A DNA stretch of 64,000 bases from Oidiodendron maius Zn (Eukaryota; Ascomycota; Leotiomycetes; Myxotrichaceae): the NCBI GenBank assembly GCA_000827325.1, contig KN832870.1, forward strand, positions 4,650,001-4,714,000. The letters are read 5' to 3'. The notes under the pieces were generated by a model. The model saw nothing but the letters and a program-made list of their open reading frames with translations. It ran no database searches and was not told where the DNA came from. Of this stretch, positions 312 through 17,016 are shown one piece after another. Numbering within the stretch: the first letter of the stretch is position 1; every line of letters starts with the position of its first letter. Made by a program: the position numbers and the translations under genes.

Positions 312-2143
312 TCATGCTCGCTTCGTGAAGGTCAGTGGGCAGTCATCCTATGGGCACGTTAGATGAGGCCCGTGTGACAACCGTGTCAGTCCGATCTAGG
401 AGGGCCTGCTTACCATGGGGAAAATCGTCGCGAACACCTTGATCTCCTCCGATCGCGGGGTCGGGTGGTGGACCCATTCTAGTTGCATGGCAGCTTTTCC
501 AATCATGAGGGCCAAGTTCAATTGCGCGTAGGTCTGGCCCAGACAGTAGTGCGCGCCCGTGCCGAAAACGAGGAAGTTCTTCGCGCCCTTCACCTCAGCA
601 TCGCCGCTATAGTATCGTTCTGGATCATAGACGTCGGGGTTGGGGTAGACTTCGGGATCACGGAGCGAGGGGTACACAGATGGGATGACCATCGCGCCTG
701 AAGTGGTCAGTATAACGCTGAAAACGCATTCCTTTCTTTACAACGTACCTTTGGGGACAGTGTATGTGTCTGTGATGGGGAAGGACTTCTTGGCGAGGTA
801 AGGCACCATGATAACTGGAGGGCGGTATCTCAACAGCTCCCTAACAGCAGCGCGGGTGTAGGTCATATTATCGAGCATATCCATAGTCACGGGCTTGTCT
901 CTGTCGCCATCACGGAGTCTCAGATTCTCCTCCCGGATGCGGTCGAGGACGTCAGGGCGCTGGGCCATGATCTGGAACAACCAAGTCGCGGCGCTGCTGG
1001 TGGCATCCTGCGAGGCGAAGAGGAACGTGAAAATGGTCTGGGCGACCTCGTAGTCGGTGAACTCGCGGAGCATAGGGTTGGGCTTCTCGATACCTTCTAG
1101 CGACTCGCCATTCTCCTGGCGGCGACGATAGTCGGCGGAATCGAGCTGATGCTTGACCCAACCGTCCATGATACAGGTGATTTCGCCTCCGGCAGCCATG
1201 CGGACTTTACTCTTGGTGGCACACTTGGTGAACTCAGACAGCACCATATCGGCAGCGCGCTTTCCATACCAGGTCCGCGTGTAGGGGATGATGATGGGAA
1301 AGTTGACAAGTTCCAGGGCAGCGGTGATCAGGTAGTAGTCGTCGGCAATCTTCTTGATGGCCTCGTCAGAGATGTAGTGGCCAACAAATGTCCGGCAAGA
1401 GACGGCGCACATGAGTTCGCGGAATTCCGGCATGAACGGGACTGGCTTTCCTCCTGCTTCTTCAGTGATCTTAGCAAACTTCTCGAGGTAGGCATTGTGA
1501 ACTTCTTCCTGGTGAGGGAGGTAGCACTCCAGCGCTTGGCGAGTGAACAGGCGGTTCAGGCCCTTCCGGAAATCAACATGCGCTTTGCCATCCAGGAAGA
1601 CCCAATTGTCGGCTCCCAGTAGCTTGGGGGCAACGTCGACGACACAGGGCTTGACGTGAGCAGGGGAGTTGAAGATCTTTCGGGACATATCACGAGTAGA
1701 GGCAATAACCACGAACCTGCTCGAATGATTAAGACAAATTTTATCGCAAGGAATATACGTAGGAGTCTTACTTGTGGAACACAGACACGCAGCTGAGCGG
1801 TCCACTTGCCCACTTCTCCATGTACTCTGACCACTTTGGTTCCATCGACGAGAGAAAGGGGCCGATGAATGGCGCCTTCCATGCTGGGCCAGCAATTGAA
1901 CCTTTACGCCAAATATAGCCAACTGAGTAAAACGGTCAGCATCGTTCTCATGCCCATGCATATCCATCTCCCTAACTCACATTGATCATACGCAACCGCG
2001 ACGAGCAAGAGCGTGATAGCTATCGTCCACCCACTAAGCTCAGAGAGCTGGGTCAAGAGGCTGTCGATCTGAGGGTGGCCCACGAATTGTGCATATTTTG
2101 CATCTGCTAGCGGCGATGCGAAGCTGGCGTTATGTACAGCCAT
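312..2143 (-). CDS. ERG5: Sterol C-22 desaturase, cytochrome P450 CYP61 (ERG5)
   Basis: Late ergosterol pathway P450 of the endoplasmic reticulum that introduces the C-22(23) double bond into the sterol side chain. Five exons (2143-1981, 1922-1772, 1716-749, 697-414, 347-312) join in phase to give 533 aa, the usual CYP61 length. An N-terminal hydrophobic anchor (about residues 38-52) is followed by the family segment YIWRKGSIAGP. The I-helix oxygen-binding motif reads ASQDATSSA, the ExxR motif is ELLRYRPP, the PERF-type motif is DPERYY, and the haem loop is FGTGAHYCLGQ with the cysteine ligand. The last exon codes only 12 residues, ending DDCPLTFTKRA, and would be missed by a simple ORF search. 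No internal damage is seen. Confidence 0.95.
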
Positions 2144-3068: not shown

Positions 3069-4702
3069 TTAATCCAGGACTCCAACCATCCCCTCCAGTA
3101 ACTTCAACAGCCCGTACGCTCCCGGATCAGGAACGCCTCTAGTGGCGGCCTCATCTAGGTAACTTGAGCGCCCCATCTTTGCCTCGAGTTTCTTGGTACT
3201 CTCCACTCCCTTTACAGCCTCATCTAGTGCTTTCTTTGCGTTCCCCGTCCTAAGTAAAGTCTCCGTAAACGGGATCAAGCAGTCTAGAACGGTGCGGTCT
3301 CCAAGTCTGGCTCGCGTGTATTTGAGTAAGTGGTCTAAAGCACCCTTCAACGCTTCTGGGAAGCTCGAAGCAGTGGACATGTTCTGGGCTAGAGAGGATA
3401 GGAAGATGCAGTAAAGGGCTCCGGATGTGCCTCCCATGTTCACCTCAAGATCGTCAACTAGCTCGCTTAGGGCTGATGGTAATTTGGAGAGATCAGCATC
3501 GCTGATGAAGTGGAGGACTTGTTTCGCCCCGTCCCGCAAGGTATACCCGCAGTCGCCATCTCCTACAATGGTATCGTACTCGGTGATAGCGGGTTCGTCT
3601 TTGATGACGCTATCGCAGCCGGCATTGATCATCTTCCGGACCAGGGCATCTGAGACCAGGAATTTGGAGCTGCTCGGTCCTGCATGGGAATGTAAATGTA
3701 CAGCTGCGATACTGTTTGCAAGTGTGTTTGATGGGCGCGCCTGAGGACTTAAAAAACTCGTGGGAATTGCGCAGAGTGATATGCCCCACCCCCTGGTTAG
3801 AGACTTGCTGCTGCGTATAGTTGATTGAGTGATGTGTGAAGGTAGATTTTTATTTGCTAAACGGTATTAGTTTAGGTCTAAATAATAAAACCGGTACTTA
3901 CAGAGACAGACAGAAATCTCATGCGCGAGAATATTGTTCTCGAGCTTGGAAAAACCGTTGAGGTCTGAAAAGTGGACGGAGTACACCGCATATTCTCCTG
4001 ATAATTGCTTCGAACCTAACAGATGCTCGAGATCTCTGTTAATGGCCGCTTTAGCGGAAGTAAACTTAGCGACCCCAACGGCATGAGCTACTGAAGGTCT
4101 ATCTCCATCTTTGGTTTCTTGAAAAGTGGAAGTCGTTTCTACCGCAGCTTTGACGAACTGCTCGAGCATGGCTTTGGTCTTCGCTAATGATGCTCTGAGA
4201 AGTTAGATGTTACTACTAGACACAACACTAGGACTTACTTTGTTTCCCTATTGGATGACAGCAACAGTGACAAAACGTGATCCAACTTTAGTTCTCCGGG
4301 TAATGTGACTTCCAGAGTTTGCTCAGAGACATGTCGTAGATTCTGCTTTGCACCTGTTCTCACAACGATAACCCCGCACTCGGTATTAAAGCCACTTTCG
4401 TGGAGCAGTTCCACAATCTCTCCTGATCTGACAGCTAACTCTTGATCCTGGGCAACTGTGAAGGCTGCGAAGGAATGGCTGAGGACTCGATTTGAGAGAT
4501 GCCCCTGTCTTCCAACCACGGCAATCGCTACATCATTGCTATTAATGAGAGCAGTGTCTATGACCACGGGCTCGCCACTAGATAGCTCGACGACTGTGAC
4601 TGATGGCCGGATAAGATCAAATAACCTGCTCCACCGCTTCGGATCTTCGAGGTGCAGCGCAGATGCGGAGTAAGGCAGCGTTTGCTCGACGACGAGAGCC
4701 AT
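3069..4702 (-). CDS. Dihydroxyacetone-kinase family protein: degenerate DhaK half fused to an intact DhaL half
   Basis: Three exons (4702-4239, 4194-3902, 3856-3069) join in phase to 514 aa. The C-terminal ~215 residues are a good DhaL (ATP-binding) domain: the three metal-binding aspartates lie in EYDTIVGDGDCG, followed by MGGTSGALY and, near the end, GRSSYLDEA with PDPGAYG. The N-terminal ~290 residues keep the outline of DhaK (NDVAIAVVGRQGHLSNRVLSH corresponds to the GDDVA..GRRGL.G.VL region, and FSDLNGFSKLENNILAHEI to the VNNxGGxSxLE segment). The substrate-loop GGGSGHEP, the NYTGD aspartate and the HGEPG histidine are all absent. All introns are GT-AG and the frame is open, so this is not an obvious pseudogene. 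An ATG at 5032 could begin an upstream exon, but I found no splice in phase, so 4702 is preferred. It diverges from the DhaK-only gene at 5164. Confidence 0.82.
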
Positions 4703-5163
4703 GACAGCCGCGAATGCAGAGAATCTAGATATCACGACGACGGTAGAAATGAAATTGAGAGGGGATATATTGGTTCCAGAACGAGCGGAGGGAAATAGGC
4801 TAAGGTGATCAGGATGTCCTGGTAGGGCGAGATATAAACCCGGATGGCCCAAATAGGCAAGCCGTCGAGTAATTGCGGGGTGAGGAGAAGTGGGAGTGGT
4901 CTTACCAGCGGTCCAGGCTTCAGAAGCTGATAACTTCTCCTCCTTTGCTGTCGTGTAACTGATGTCAATCTTGCTGTACTTCTCTCCTCTGCGATCCTTA
5001 TTTCGTGTCACTTGTGCTATTACTGGCCTCATACGCGCTGAGCTTGACGTCCACCCCGCAATTCACCAAGCTTTATCTACACAACTTGCCCAACTACCTA
5101 ATGCACAGTACCTGCGTGCCTAACTACTAATACATAATTTCCCAATCCTGCTGGCTCTTCAAC
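4703..5163. promoter_or_regulatory. Shared divergent promoter of the DhaL-type and DhaK-type genes
   Basis: These 461 bases separate the two start codons. The arrangement implies that both genes share regulatory DNA. I recognise no specific operator. The sequence just before the plus-strand ATG is CT-rich, typical of a fungal leader. Confidence 0.5.
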
Positions 5164-6369
5164 ATGACGACAGAGACGCATACGCATGCCAGAGAAACCT
5201 TTCACTTTATCAACGAGCCTACAGATGCTATTAATGAGGCTGCGATTGGCCTGACAGAGCATCATCCTGGCCTGTCATATACTCCTGCGCATAAGATAGT
5301 ATATCGCTCCGACCTCGACACATTCCGAAGGGACCATGTCACTACTATCGGATTTGGCGGCGGGGGACAGTGAGTTTCTTGACAATAATCTCCCCCTCCA
5401 CGCTAGAGCTAATACCAAGCAGCGAGCCCATGTTCTCGGGCTTCGTAGGCCCATCTTACCTCTCGTGCTGCGTTTCCGGTAACATATTCGCGTCTCCGAC
5501 GGCAACGCAGATCCTTGAAGGCATAAAGCTGTGCCAATCGCTCGATTCTAGTTCTAAAGGCACGCTGGTCGTCTGTGGGAATTATACCGGGGACATCCTC
5601 AATGCGGGATTGGCCATCACGCGGGCAACGGCGATGGGGTATAAAGTCAGGTTCCTTCCTGTAGGTGACGACGTTGCGGTAGGGAGAAAGAAGGGCGGAA
5701 AGGTAGGGAGGAGAGGATTGAGCGGACACGTACTCGCTTTGAAGATTGCGTGTGCCTTAGCGGAGCAGGGAGACAGTCTGGAGAGGGTGGGCGACGTGAT
5801 GGAGTATATTGGCGCAAACTCTGGGACTATTGCAGTGGCTTTTGACCGGTGTGTGCACCTTCATATATCTATGTGACAGAGCTGACAGCGTAAGTGTTGC
5901 ATTGCCCAACGGCATCATTACAGAAATCCAGACACTACCCCCTGCAACTATCGAGCTTGGACTTGGCTGCCATGGCGAGCCTGGCCTGCGCCAGATGTCT
6001 CCAGTCCCAAGCCCAGAAGCTCTCACCAAGGATATGATTAAGCTCCTGATAGACACGTCTGATACCAATCGCGGGTTTATTCCATTCTCGTCGACGCGCA
6101 AGAACGAGGTTATCCTCTTGGTCAATAGCTCCGGAAGCACGTCAGATGAGGTCCTGGCTCGGTTCGCAGAATTAGCGATCGCCGAACTGAAGAGAGAGGG
6201 GATTGCCGTCAGGAGACTGACGTTGGGTCCGATAGTCACCAGCTTGAAGCAGAGTGGGTTTGGGTTTACAATTTGGAGGTTGCCGGATACGGAGGAAGGA
6301 GTGCTTGACAGAGACGAGGCATTACGATGTTGGGATAAGAAGGTCGGTGTGGTTGCTTGGAGGCAGTGA
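5164..6369 (+). CDS. DhaK-only dihydroxyacetone-kinase subunit (ketose-binding half)
   Basis: Three exons (5164-5369, 5423-5848, 5889-6369) give 370 aa, the length of a lone DhaK domain. Ordinary eukaryotic DHA kinases have DhaK plus DhaL in one chain of about 580 aa. The substrate-site elements are present: GFGGGGQHEPMFSGFVG (family GGGSGHEPAHAGFVG, with S-G changed to G-Q), NYTGDILNAG with the catalytic aspartate, GDDVAVGR..GRRGLSG, and LGLGCHGEPG with the histidine that binds the keto group covalently. The second subdomain motif is altered to LLVNSSGST from VNNLGGLS. No DhaL domain follows; the stop is clean and about 520 bases of non-coding DNA come next. This subunit cannot bind ATP by itself, so a DhaL partner is needed, and the divergent neighbour encodes one. 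The substrate may be dihydroxyacetone, glyceraldehyde or a tetrulose; the sequence does not decide. Confidence 0.88.
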
Positions 6370-6890: not shown

Positions 6891-8177
6891 TTAGGCAGTG
6901 AATTCCGCAGAGCGCTGTACCTCTTGCTCAACTTGTAATCCGTCGACGACGGGGGCGAGCTCGCTAAGGATCTCGTATGCCTTCTTGTGGTATTCCAGCT
7001 GAGCTGCGATCAAGTCGGCCAGGTTCCGAAGGGGCTCGGGGGTATCAAGGACCTGCTATTGTTAACACTTAGAGCATATTGTCAAGATTGTGAATGCATA
7101 CATTCTTCATCACACCAACAGCCTCCTCCGTCTGACCGACAAACTCGTCTTCAGCCTGCTCGATCTCAACTCTAGACGACTCATCTGCCTCGTCATTACG
7201 GCCTTCTACTCCTCGAGAGTTTGTTTGACCTGGAAGGTGCCAGCCAGAGTTTTTAGACTTCGCTTTGGCAGCATCGAGCAACAGTCTCGAGTTCTCAACA
7301 CCTTTTCGAGCCCGAGTTGCAAACATCAAGTTGGTATTCAAGGTGGTGCTCCAACCCGCAAGGAAACGGCTCTGGATCTGGGCATCTTGCGCGAGCCTAG
7401 CCTCGCCAACTCGCTCACTGGCTAAGGCATACTTCTCTAGTGCTGCTGCTAGAGGATCTTCGCCTGCTCCGGTATACTGTTGCTGGAGAAGCTGGCTGCT
7501 TGCCAAACTAGCACGGGCAATGGCGTGACTGAAGGTCTTTGGCTGTGGTTTCGCAGAGGGAGGAGCAGTAAGAGCCGCCTGTGCTTCGGCTGGAGAAGTC
7601 GCGGTTGTGAGAAGGTGTACCTTCTCGCTCACAGTACGGCCAAGGTCGTTGAAGGACTGATGTTGTATTAGACGCAATTTAAAGTCACATTCAGCAGTTC
7701 ATCTTACCTCCTTAATGTTATTTGGGTAGTCGTAGGCTTCATGCGAGTATTGAGAACTAGGCGTCATCGAATCAGCTTATATGTCTTGGTAGCTGGCCGT
7801 ACGATTTCACTTGTACTCACGTAACCTGTAGCATTTTCTGGTGGATCTGCTTCAGGGCATCGATCCTCTTTTCCAGCTCGATGTAGTCAGGGGGAAGCTG
7901 AGTCTAAGGATGGTAATTCAAAGGTAAGCATCTTCGCAAGTAAGAGTGCATGTTGTCTGACCTTGTCATCAACTTGTCCCAATTGCTCCTTCACATATTG
8001 CTGAGTGCGCGCAGCAAACGGCGAGAAGGAAGCCCTAAGCAACGAAATTAGCACTGAATCGCAAGTCAGGCTGCCGACATTTGGAATACGGCTCAGCTGA
8101 AGCGTGCATTCCTGTCGCCCAGGTATGAGAATGGTAACATACGTGAAGTTCTTGCCGAAAGCTGAAACCTTATCCAT
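6891..8177 (-). CDS. BAR-domain protein of the Gvp36 type
   Basis: About 315 aa from at least six exons. It starts MDKVSAFGKNFT (8177-8143), continues with ASFSPFAARTQQYVKEQLG, TQLPPDYIELEKRIDALKQ and SQYSHEAYDYPNN, then the long exon from about 7660 to 7085, and ends QEVQRSAEFTA before a TAA at 6891-6893. The chain is almost entirely amphipathic helix rich in K, E, Q and A, as in fungal BAR_2 proteins. The family shapes Golgi and vacuolar membranes and affects endocytosis in yeast. All splices seen are GT-AG. The family call is firm; equivalence to yeast GVP36 is inferred from general similarity. Confidence 0.8.
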
Positions 8178-12337: not shown

Positions 12338-13494
12338 ATGGCGCCTCAACTTGCTTGGATCGGCCTAGGCAATATGGGCAGGGTGAGTCCTGAACCTTTT
12401 ACCTTGCATTGGGATCGATTGGGCGTTCCCGATCCTCCAACTGGGATTGATTCTGCTCTTTTCTCAATTGCGAAGATCTGGTTTTCTAAACGTTCATTAA
12501 GAGCATAACAATCATTGCTCAAGCTGACTCTGTTGGGGCAAGGGCATGTGTAAGAACATTGTCACCCGTGGGGACCTTGATAATCCTCTCATAATCTGCA
12601 ACCGAACGACAAAACGCGCAGAAGATTTCAGCAAGTCCCTACCGCCTGGGAAGTCAATTGTCGCCTCCTCCATAGAAGATGCTGTTTCAAAATCAGACAT
12701 CATCTTTACGTGCGTGGGCGACGATGCTGCAGTTAATGAGATCTTTGACGCCGCACTCCAAAAAGGTGCCAAGGGGAAGCTCTTTGTGGATTGCTCCACA
12801 GTTCACCCAGATACCACCGAGGGCCTGGCGAAGAAAGCCATCGCCGCTAGCGCAGAGTTTGGTGCAACCCCATTTTTCGCATCTTCTACTCTCAATTTTG
12901 CTTGTCTTGCTCTCTTTGCGGCTGCTAATTTGTAAAATAGTGGCTTGTCCTGTCTTTGGAGCCCCTGCAATGGCCGATAAAGGACAATTGGTATGCGTGC
13001 TCGCAGGGCCGGAATCATCTGTAGACAAAGTCAAACCATATACCACGGGTGTCATTAGCAGGATAAATGTTGATTTCAGTGGCCAGCGTGTTGGAAAGGC
13101 AACTTTGCTGAAGGTTATCGGCAACACCTTCATTCTCAACTTAATTGAATCACTCTCTGAGGGCCATGTGCTGGCTGAAAAGTCAGGTCTTGGAACTGAT
13201 AACCTTCACCAGTTTATCGAAGCCTTGCTGCCTGGTGTGTACGCTGGATACTCGACGAGAATGCTATCTGGAGAATATCACAAGCGAGAAGAACCTTTGT
13301 TCGCAGTAGACTTGGCTAGGAAGGATGCACGCCATGCACTGGCTCTAGCAGAGGCATCTGGCACGCATCTGAAGGGCTTAGAAGTTGCAGATGCCCATTT
13401 GGTGCAAGTCAAGGAACACATGGGCGGTAGGGGTGACAGTGCCTCAATCTATGGTGCTGTCCGGAAAGAGGCTGGTCTCAAATTTGAAAATTAA
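12338..13494 (+). CDS. NAD(P)-dependent beta-hydroxyacid dehydrogenase (3-hydroxyisobutyrate dehydrogenase-like)
   Basis: Exons 12338-12382, 12543-12861 and 12941-13494 give 305 aa, normal for the family. The Rossmann motif WIGLGNMGRGMC begins at residue 6, followed by NRT at the end of strand 2. The substrate-binding segment DCSTVHPDT, the VFGAPAMADKGQL region and the catalytic-lysine helix (LLKVIGNTFI) are all present. The family reduces or oxidises small beta-hydroxyacids such as 3-hydroxyisobutyrate, glyoxylate or succinic semialdehyde; the exact substrate cannot be read here. Intron 2 uses donor GTGCAA, which restores the expected EFVACPVFGAP junction. No targeting peptide is apparent, so it is probably cytosolic. 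Confidence 0.88.
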
Positions 13495-15213: not shown

Positions 15214-17016
15214 ATGACAACACTTGCATCCTCAACTCCTGTTGCGATGTCTGAGAAGGCCTATACCAATAGTACTCAGACGGAAGCGTCTAAGCACGCT
15301 GGGAATTGGCCAAATGAGGCTGGAGTAAGTCAACTGATGCAATATTTTAATATGCATTGTTAGTCCAATTGCTCACTTTTGGCAAAGTTCAATGCCAGTA
15401 TCGAGGTCCGTGAGCCAAAGGAGTTAGTTGTTCAAGGCTTCATTCCCCCAGCAGTTGCGGGAACTCTTTACAGGACTGGTCCAGGCCACTACCAGATTCC
15501 AGATACTCCTATTGGCACATTCAAGGCCACACACTGGTTTGGTATGTTGAGCGGATCCTGTAACACACTATGCTGACTCGAGAAATCAGATGGATTTTCC
15601 CACATCCATAGATTCCAGATGATTCCTGATGGCAAAGGTTCTTGCAAAGTCCTGTACAACTCACGACGCCAAGTAGACCCACTCTTAGATGAAATTAAGA
15701 GGACCGGAAAGATGGATCTAATCACTTTTGGTCAGAAGAGGGATCCGTGCACCAGTTTATTTGGGAAACTCAAGTCTACCTTTGATTCTGGTCGAAGCTC
15801 TGATCCCTACTTCAACAATATCGGTGTAACAATTTCGGACAATTCAGGTTTATCCCCCAAAGCCAACGCCATGGTTGCGAAGACCGACAATGCTATCATG
15901 AAGGAGATAGATAGAGAGACCCTGGAACCTATTGGCATTGCCACACAGAAGAAGCTTCACCCAGATTTGAAAGGCCCGTTGTCCTGTGCACATGCCCAGT
16001 ATGATCACGAAACTGGTGATATGTTTAACTTTAACCTTGACCTGGGTGCAACCTGCACGTATCGCATCTTCAAAACGTCATTGACTACAGGAAAGACTGA
16101 GATTTTGGCCACCATTTCCGACAGGACGATCCCGCCGGCTTATATTCATTCGTTCTGCCTCACTCCCGACTACGTCATCTTAGCCGTGTGGTGTTCACAC
16201 ATCGCTGGAAATGGCTTGAAAATCCTGTGGGAGCGAAATATGCTGGATGCAATCTCTCCATTGGACCCTAAATCCAAAGTAAAGTGGCTTGTGATTGACC
16301 GAAAGCATGGCAAAGGGCTTGTTGCCGCTTTCGACGGTCCGCCCATGTTCTGCTTCCACACTGTCAACGCATACCAAGAGGCCTCTTCCGATGGCCAGTC
16401 TGTTGATATATACTGCGATCTTGTCGAGTACAAGTCGACCGATATTCTACATCGCCTGTACTACGAAAATCTTATCTCAACTGGACCTGGCGTCTCAAAG
16501 TATGCCACAGATGAAGGCCGTAATAAGACCAATACAGACTTCGTGAGATACCGCTTGGCAAAGGTTCCAACTGGCGCCACTGCACGCAGATCTGCAAAGA
16601 AGAGCCGACCAGGAACGGCCGAAGTTGTATTTGAGCTTTCTGGGCCGAAGGTTGGAGAGCTGCCCACCATCAATCCTTCCTTCTCCACCAAAAAGGCGCG
16701 TTACGTTTACACCATCATCGACCGGGGCTTCGCTTCTTGGGTCGATGGAATAGGAAAGACGGATCTTGAAACCAAGGAGACTACCTACTGGTCAGAGAAG
16801 AAACATACACCTGGAGAACCAATCTTCGTCGCTGACGACACAAGAGAGGGAGAAGATGCTGGATACCTGCTGAGCGTTATTTTGGATGGTGAAAAAGGCA
16901 CCAGCTATTTGCTCTGTTTGGATGCACAGACCATGAAGGAAGTAGGCCGGGCTGAATGCGAGGTTCCAGTTGGATTCGGCTTCCATGGCAATCACGTTCG
17001 GCCTAAGCTAGCGTGA
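15214..17016 (+). CDS. Carotenoid oxygenase (apocarotenoid/torulene-cleaving type)
   Basis: Non-haem iron dioxygenase that cleaves a conjugated double bond of a carotenoid or related polyene. Exons 15214-15324, 15388-15541 and 15590-17016 give 563 aa. The four histidine iron ligands are all in place: CAHAQYD, YIHSFCLTPDYVIL, CFHTVNAYQE and GFGFHGNHVRP. The second-shell region HWFDGFSHIHRF and the segments KILWERNMLDAI and WLVIDRKHGKGL resemble the fungal CarT/CAO-2 group (torulene cleavage in neurosporaxanthin synthesis) more than the stilbene-cleaving CAO-1 group; this subgroup call is from memory of family features. No carotenoid synthase, desaturase or opsin gene lies in the window. Confidence 0.88.

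Follow-up and report, generated by a model that had tools for sequence, protein, structure and literature searches.

Do two divergent genes of Oidiodendron maius Zn, one encoding a DhaK (K) domain and the other a DhaL (L) domain, together encode a single kinase whose active site is divided between two chains? In fused kinases of this class, two chains are described as intertwined, with K of one facing L of the other (PMC4661931, PMC6429413), in agreement with the premise of the earlier note that DhaL of one chain serves DhaK of the other in the dimer. The genes lie in a window of 64,000 nucleotides (the whole stretch of DNA analyzed), in a genome of 45.9 Mb on 58 contigs whose genes carry introns. 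They are called plus and minus here after their strands, and the features are as follows.

5164..6369, plus strand: DhaK-only gene (plus gene), exons 5164-5369, 5423-5848, and 5889-6369, 370 amino acids
3069..4702, minus strand: degenerate-DhaK plus DhaL gene (minus gene), exons 4702-4239, 4194-3902, and 3856-3069, 514 amino acids
3069..3659, minus strand: DhaL domain of the minus protein, residues 319-514 plus stop, with D347, D352, D354, GGTSG, and GDRT
3660..4702, minus strand: N-terminal region of the minus protein, residues 1-318, coding throughout, with residues ~191-286 likely DhaK derived and 1-190 uncertain
4703..5163, no strand: gap between the start codons of the two genes, 461 bases, possible shared promoter

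The genes stand head to head, with three exons each and 461 bases from start codon to start codon, so that the coordinates and the gap of the earlier note hold, now with three-exon models for both genes. Exon joins were set by GT-AG sites and reading frame, and the second intron of the plus gene is only 40 bases long. The gap is a possible shared promoter, in which a simple motif scan found nothing distinctive. The pair is flanked by a cytochrome P450 frame (741-1976, minus strand), which may be ERG5-like, and by a BAR_2-domain protein (7072-7698, minus strand). An NAD_binding_11 frame (C-terminal domain of 3-hydroxyisobutyrate dehydrogenases; 12676-13491, plus strand) lies ~6 kb from the pair, and an RPE65/carotenoid-oxygenase-type frame (313 bits) is found at 15577-17013 (plus strand). 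No sugar-catabolic cluster was seen in the 20 of the window's 30 long reading frames that were scanned; three of the other ten are the pair itself.

The domain content of the two proteins is complementary. The plus protein matched Pfam Dak1 (273 bits) and, as the earlier note had it, carries no DhaL (no Dak2 match), and the minus protein matched Dak2 (140 bits, residues 350-510) with no Dak1 match. The ATP-type kinase model TIGR02361 has 583 positions, of which plus covers 2-343 (303 bits) and residues 300-509 of minus cover 360-582 (196 bits). Both scores are far below the cut-off of 575 bits, against 738 bits for the genome's own fused kinase, and neither protein holds DhaK and DhaL in one chain. 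For both halves, the split-type models of DhaK and DhaL gave a poorer fit than this one, and the two proteins are also not a set of separate single-domain chains, the DhaL of minus sitting on a 318-residue N-terminal region. Judged by these matches, the two proteins jointly make up one ATP-type enzyme.

The whole genome was searched in six frames with Dak1 and Dak2 (best candidates scored, exon by exon). Dak1 found the plus gene and C4:2605234-2606205; Dak2 gave two matches only, the minus gene and C4:2604469-2604930. The C4 matches belong to one gene (C4:2604469-2606205), on another contig than the pair, which splices to a fused kinase of 593 amino acids, and these searches found no DhaK or DhaL match beyond it and the pair. 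A DhaL exon downstream of 6369, one of three findings that the earlier note named as speaking against a split enzyme, is therefore absent from the Dak2 results, an outcome in favor of the note. The EIIA-man/DhaM-type domain (PF03610) had 0 matches in the genome; as a control, it matched in 5 of 14 genomes. Because these searches found no other DAK locus and no DhaM-type match, the possible partner of the pair is either the pair itself or the fused kinase.

Residue by residue, the K of plus and the L of minus retain their catalytic positions. Plus keeps H69, S93, D126, and H239, which we take to be the classical DhaK residues, and thus has the catalytic His/Asp/His set (H69, D126, and H239). 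The earlier note credited plus with every DhaK substrate-site residue; this stands for the four residues, but the glycine loop SGGGSGHEP is altered to GFGGGGHEP. Of 77 columns conserved at ≥95% in 85 bacterial DhaK domains, plus keeps 52 and the fused kinase 62. In the human enzyme, the triose-binding histidine of DhaK is given as His221 (PMC6429413). The DhaL of minus was rightly called intact with its three metal-binding aspartates: D347, D352, and D354 are kept, with the spacing of Asp380, Asp385, and Asp387, described as anchoring Mg in the Citrobacter enzyme (PMC4661931). It also keeps 27 of 38 columns conserved at ≥90% in 33 other DhaLs (fused kinase, 26 of 38), and residues 315-512 are 42.5% identical to the fused kinase over 207 amino acids. 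A scan of viral contigs with the DhaL exon found no relative. The fused kinase itself reads SMDGTSG, with D456 at a position that is glycine in minus (G394) and in the majority of the 33 other DhaLs, and may differ in activity.

What precedes the DhaL of minus is harder to place. Residues 1-318 are an open frame (chance, 1.5e-7; 0 of 20,000 shuffles). The codon score of this degenerate half, 0.111 bits, resembles those of DhaL (0.144) and plus (0.120), and three other frames score negative; third-position G+C is 0.475 (DhaL, 0.599; plus, 0.585). The synonymous-codon score is about zero in all three stretches alike, so the codon score mainly mirrors amino acid make-up. Direct comparisons with DhaK gave little. 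With blastp, the degenerate half had no meaningful match to the fused kinase (E value of 6.9 or worse) and one weak, noncolinear match to plus (E value, 0.023). Residues 1-318 scored 0.8 bits with a custom DhaK profile in HMMER (not significant), their hhalign score was reached by 43 (local) and 88 (global) of 200 shuffles, and their custom PSSM alignment score was reached by 63 of 1,000 shuffles, a figure that carries no information, its optimum being an end-overlap artifact. In pairwise alignments of the N-terminal region with 13 DhaKs, the mean score was reached by 6, 6, 7, and 29 of 500 shuffles (four settings), with plus among the best single partners and no signal from the fused kinase; the 13 were chosen by hand from 87 and include L086 and L087, both best hits of minus itself, which biases the test.

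A DhaL-anchored test asked whether alignments starting in DhaL extend further upstream than shuffles permit. We trust the version run on 16 fused kinases picked without use of the minus protein, namely, L089-L091, L093-L102 (ten taken by hand from 40 rows), the genome's own, 26vk, and 1un9, some of which are closely related to each other, so that these are not 16 independent tests. Overall, 19 and 25 of 1,000 shuffles reached the score. With only residues 191-318 shuffled, 1 and 5 of 500 did so, and with only 191-286 shuffled, 2 and 8 of 500; shuffling only 1-190 had no effect (433 and 366 of 500). No extension at all was seen in 5 of 16 targets with BLOSUM62 and 2 of 16 with BLOSUM45; the strongest single target, L096, gave 5 and 2 of 1,000. 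With the genome's fused kinase as sole target, residues 1-318 did no better than shuffles (149 and 517 of 1,000). Earlier runs had given 1 and 0 of 500 (seven fused kinases) and 0 of 1,000 twice (nine), with section shuffles on the nine (191-286, 0 of 300; 1-190, 132 of 300) and a reversed-target control on six (mean, 1.2 versus 22.5); these figures are to be discounted, because three targets (L086-L088) came from the minus protein's own best hits.

Since shuffles of 191-286 rarely reach the anchored score, descent from DhaK is likely for the second part of the region. A K domain in residues 1-190 is suggested by position and is uncertain. In minus, 75 residues separate the end of K from the Asp motif of DhaL (fused kinase, 95; three bacterial kinases, 81), and motif-like places in the N-terminal region have DhaK-compatible spacing except for ~42 residues absent midregion. 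AlphaFold2 models were of low confidence, both for exon 1 alone (pLDDT, 41.7) and for residues 1-130 with an alignment trimmed by hand to force the DhaK register (pLDDT, 52.4); Foldseek found nothing in the PDB at an E value of 0.001 or better for either, and no DhaK among the best 50 of 651 and best 50 of 345 matches. Exon 1 can be set against DhaK in either of two registers, one pairing GRQGH with GSGHEP (trimmed relatives) and the other GRQG with GRRG. When relatives are trimmed to their first 120-130 residues, minus reads TGA at the TGD place; with longer relatives, MAFFT pairs its GRQG with GRRG instead. VAHAVG at 190-195 could leave a histidine near the site of the HGEPG histidine. The earlier note described a pseudo-DhaK half retained as an eroded scaffold and lacking the HGEPG histidine, the NYTGD aspartate, and the GGGSGHEP loop. 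For both the pseudo-DhaK and the scaffold, this is partly supported, namely, for residues ~191-286, 1-190 giving no sequence signal; of the motifs, the histidine is likely lost and the aspartate is Ala in one register, both depending on the alignment register.

For ancestry, at least 586 prokaryotic relatives were confirmed, of which 80 were kept and 79 had a usable frame; their use was limited to profiles, conservation, and trees, the latter drawing on a subset. In the DhaK tree (26 rows), plus, the fused kinase, and PDB 26vk (fungal, to judge by its similarity) formed one group (95/90), apart from bacterial fused and DhaK-only proteins; the plus branch is long (2.35), and the program flags the placement of such a row as unsure. 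In the DhaL tree (13 rows), the DhaL of minus likewise joined the fused kinase and 26vk (100/99), here too on long branches flagged as unsure. A fungal fused kinase thus seems to be the source of both halves, rather than import from a bacterial split system.

Known systems resemble the pair in part. The ATP-dependent dihydroxyacetone kinases/triokinases (TIGR02361 dak_ATP; PDB 26vk and 1un9; human TKFC) share the K and L domains, the models, and the catalytic residues of each half, but carry both domains on a single chain; in the pair they are spread over two, of which plus lacks L and minus has a degenerate K-like half. Bacterial PTS-type DhaK-DhaL-DhaM likewise has DhaK as its own chain; it differs in that the fungal genome holds no DhaM-type domain, the sequences side with the ATP type, and DhaL does not stand alone. 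DhaQ, the coactivator of DhaKLM (TIGR02362), is a DhaK relative that acts as a coactivator and not as a kinase, but plus is far closer to TIGR02361 (303 versus 145 bits). In Trypanosoma AdoMetDC and its prozyme, a dead paralogue is described as partnering an active one (PMC5201418); that enzyme is unrelated, and in the O. maius pair it would be the degenerate partner that contributes the ATP-binding domain. Among the literature matches listed (titles and abstract openings, with few subscription journals covered), no split fungal pair appeared; two DAK candidates each are mentioned for Neurospora crassa (PMC13158570) and Trichoderma reesei (PMC9781776).

These findings are compatible with several arrangements. 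We put at about even chances that the two proteins form a single heteromeric kinase, with one working site for each pair, that arose by duplication and complementary loss. The kinase would be ATP dependent and act on a ketose (triose or tetrulose), each gene encoding one of its two chains. A working K, but no L, would come from plus; a working L would come from minus, on a K-like region that has lost its substrate site and is retained for dimerizing and for placing L. A plus:minus dimer would then have exactly one complete site, which would explain what each gene has lost. The likely origin would be a fungal fused kinase that was duplicated and then underwent complementary loss. As each gene has one working half, sugar binding in plus and ATP binding in minus, the two probably must pair up to work. 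We infer dimerization, catalysis in trans, co-expression, and the substrate of the pair from sequence. In the strictest form, the triose/tetrulose kinase would be an obligate heterodimer: a fused enzyme, once duplicated, would have split its active site over two divergent genes, and the dead K would be kept solely to present L in trans, with one site per dimer. This form is more tentative, at somewhat less than even chances.

The pair could instead assemble in the bacterial manner, with a plus DhaK homodimer on which the DhaL of minus docks and the N-terminal region of minus being an extension for regulation or targeting and not a dimerizing K domain. A heterotetramer of this kind, DhaL-DhaK-DhaK-DhaL, is described for E. 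coli, where DhaK and DhaL are separate chains (PMC6429413), and residues 1-190 of minus, with no DhaK signal, would suit such an extension; the better fit of both halves to the fused ATP-type model than to split-type models, their grouping with the fused kinase in trees, and the DhaK-derived look of 191-286 argue the other way, and we consider this assembly unlikely. Equally unlikely in our judgment is that the genes work apart, plus borrowing the DhaL of the fused kinase or being a ligand-sensing nonkinase DhaK (compare DhaQ), and minus modulating the fused kinase or doing another ATP-dependent job. A complete fused kinase is indeed present, plus is weakly related to the DhaQ model (though TIGR02361 fits far better), its glycine loop is changed, and its branch is long; against this stand the head-to-head position, the exact complementarity of the losses, and the catalytic residues retained in the K of plus and the L of minus. 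That the pair is a decaying, functionless duplicate is very improbable: the motifs lost in the K-like half of minus, the long branch of plus, and the lower third-position G+C of the degenerate half, with synonymous-codon scores near zero throughout, would fit decay, but six exons have open frames and GT-AG sites, the codon score of the degenerate half is like those of DhaL and plus, its open frame is hardly due to chance, and the DhaL of minus is conserved as well as that of the fused kinase.

The fused kinase presumably handles dihydroxyacetone itself, so another ketose is possible as the substrate of the pair. The erythritol catabolism of Yarrowia includes an isomerase of the RpiB type. The erythrulose kinase of Yarrowia is described as EYK1. 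The one RpiB/LacAB-type isomerase match of the O. maius genome lies on the contig of the pair (C1:4796482-4796850), ~140 kb away, which, by analogy with Yarrowia, is at most a faint hint at a tetrulose substrate.

Each of the two genes partly matches kinase models, and neither has a whole active site, which calls for caution in annotation. If the heteromeric reading is true, the pair would show plainly how a two-domain homodimer can become an obligate heteromer by complementary domain loss, and it would give the fungus a second ketose kinase besides the fused one.
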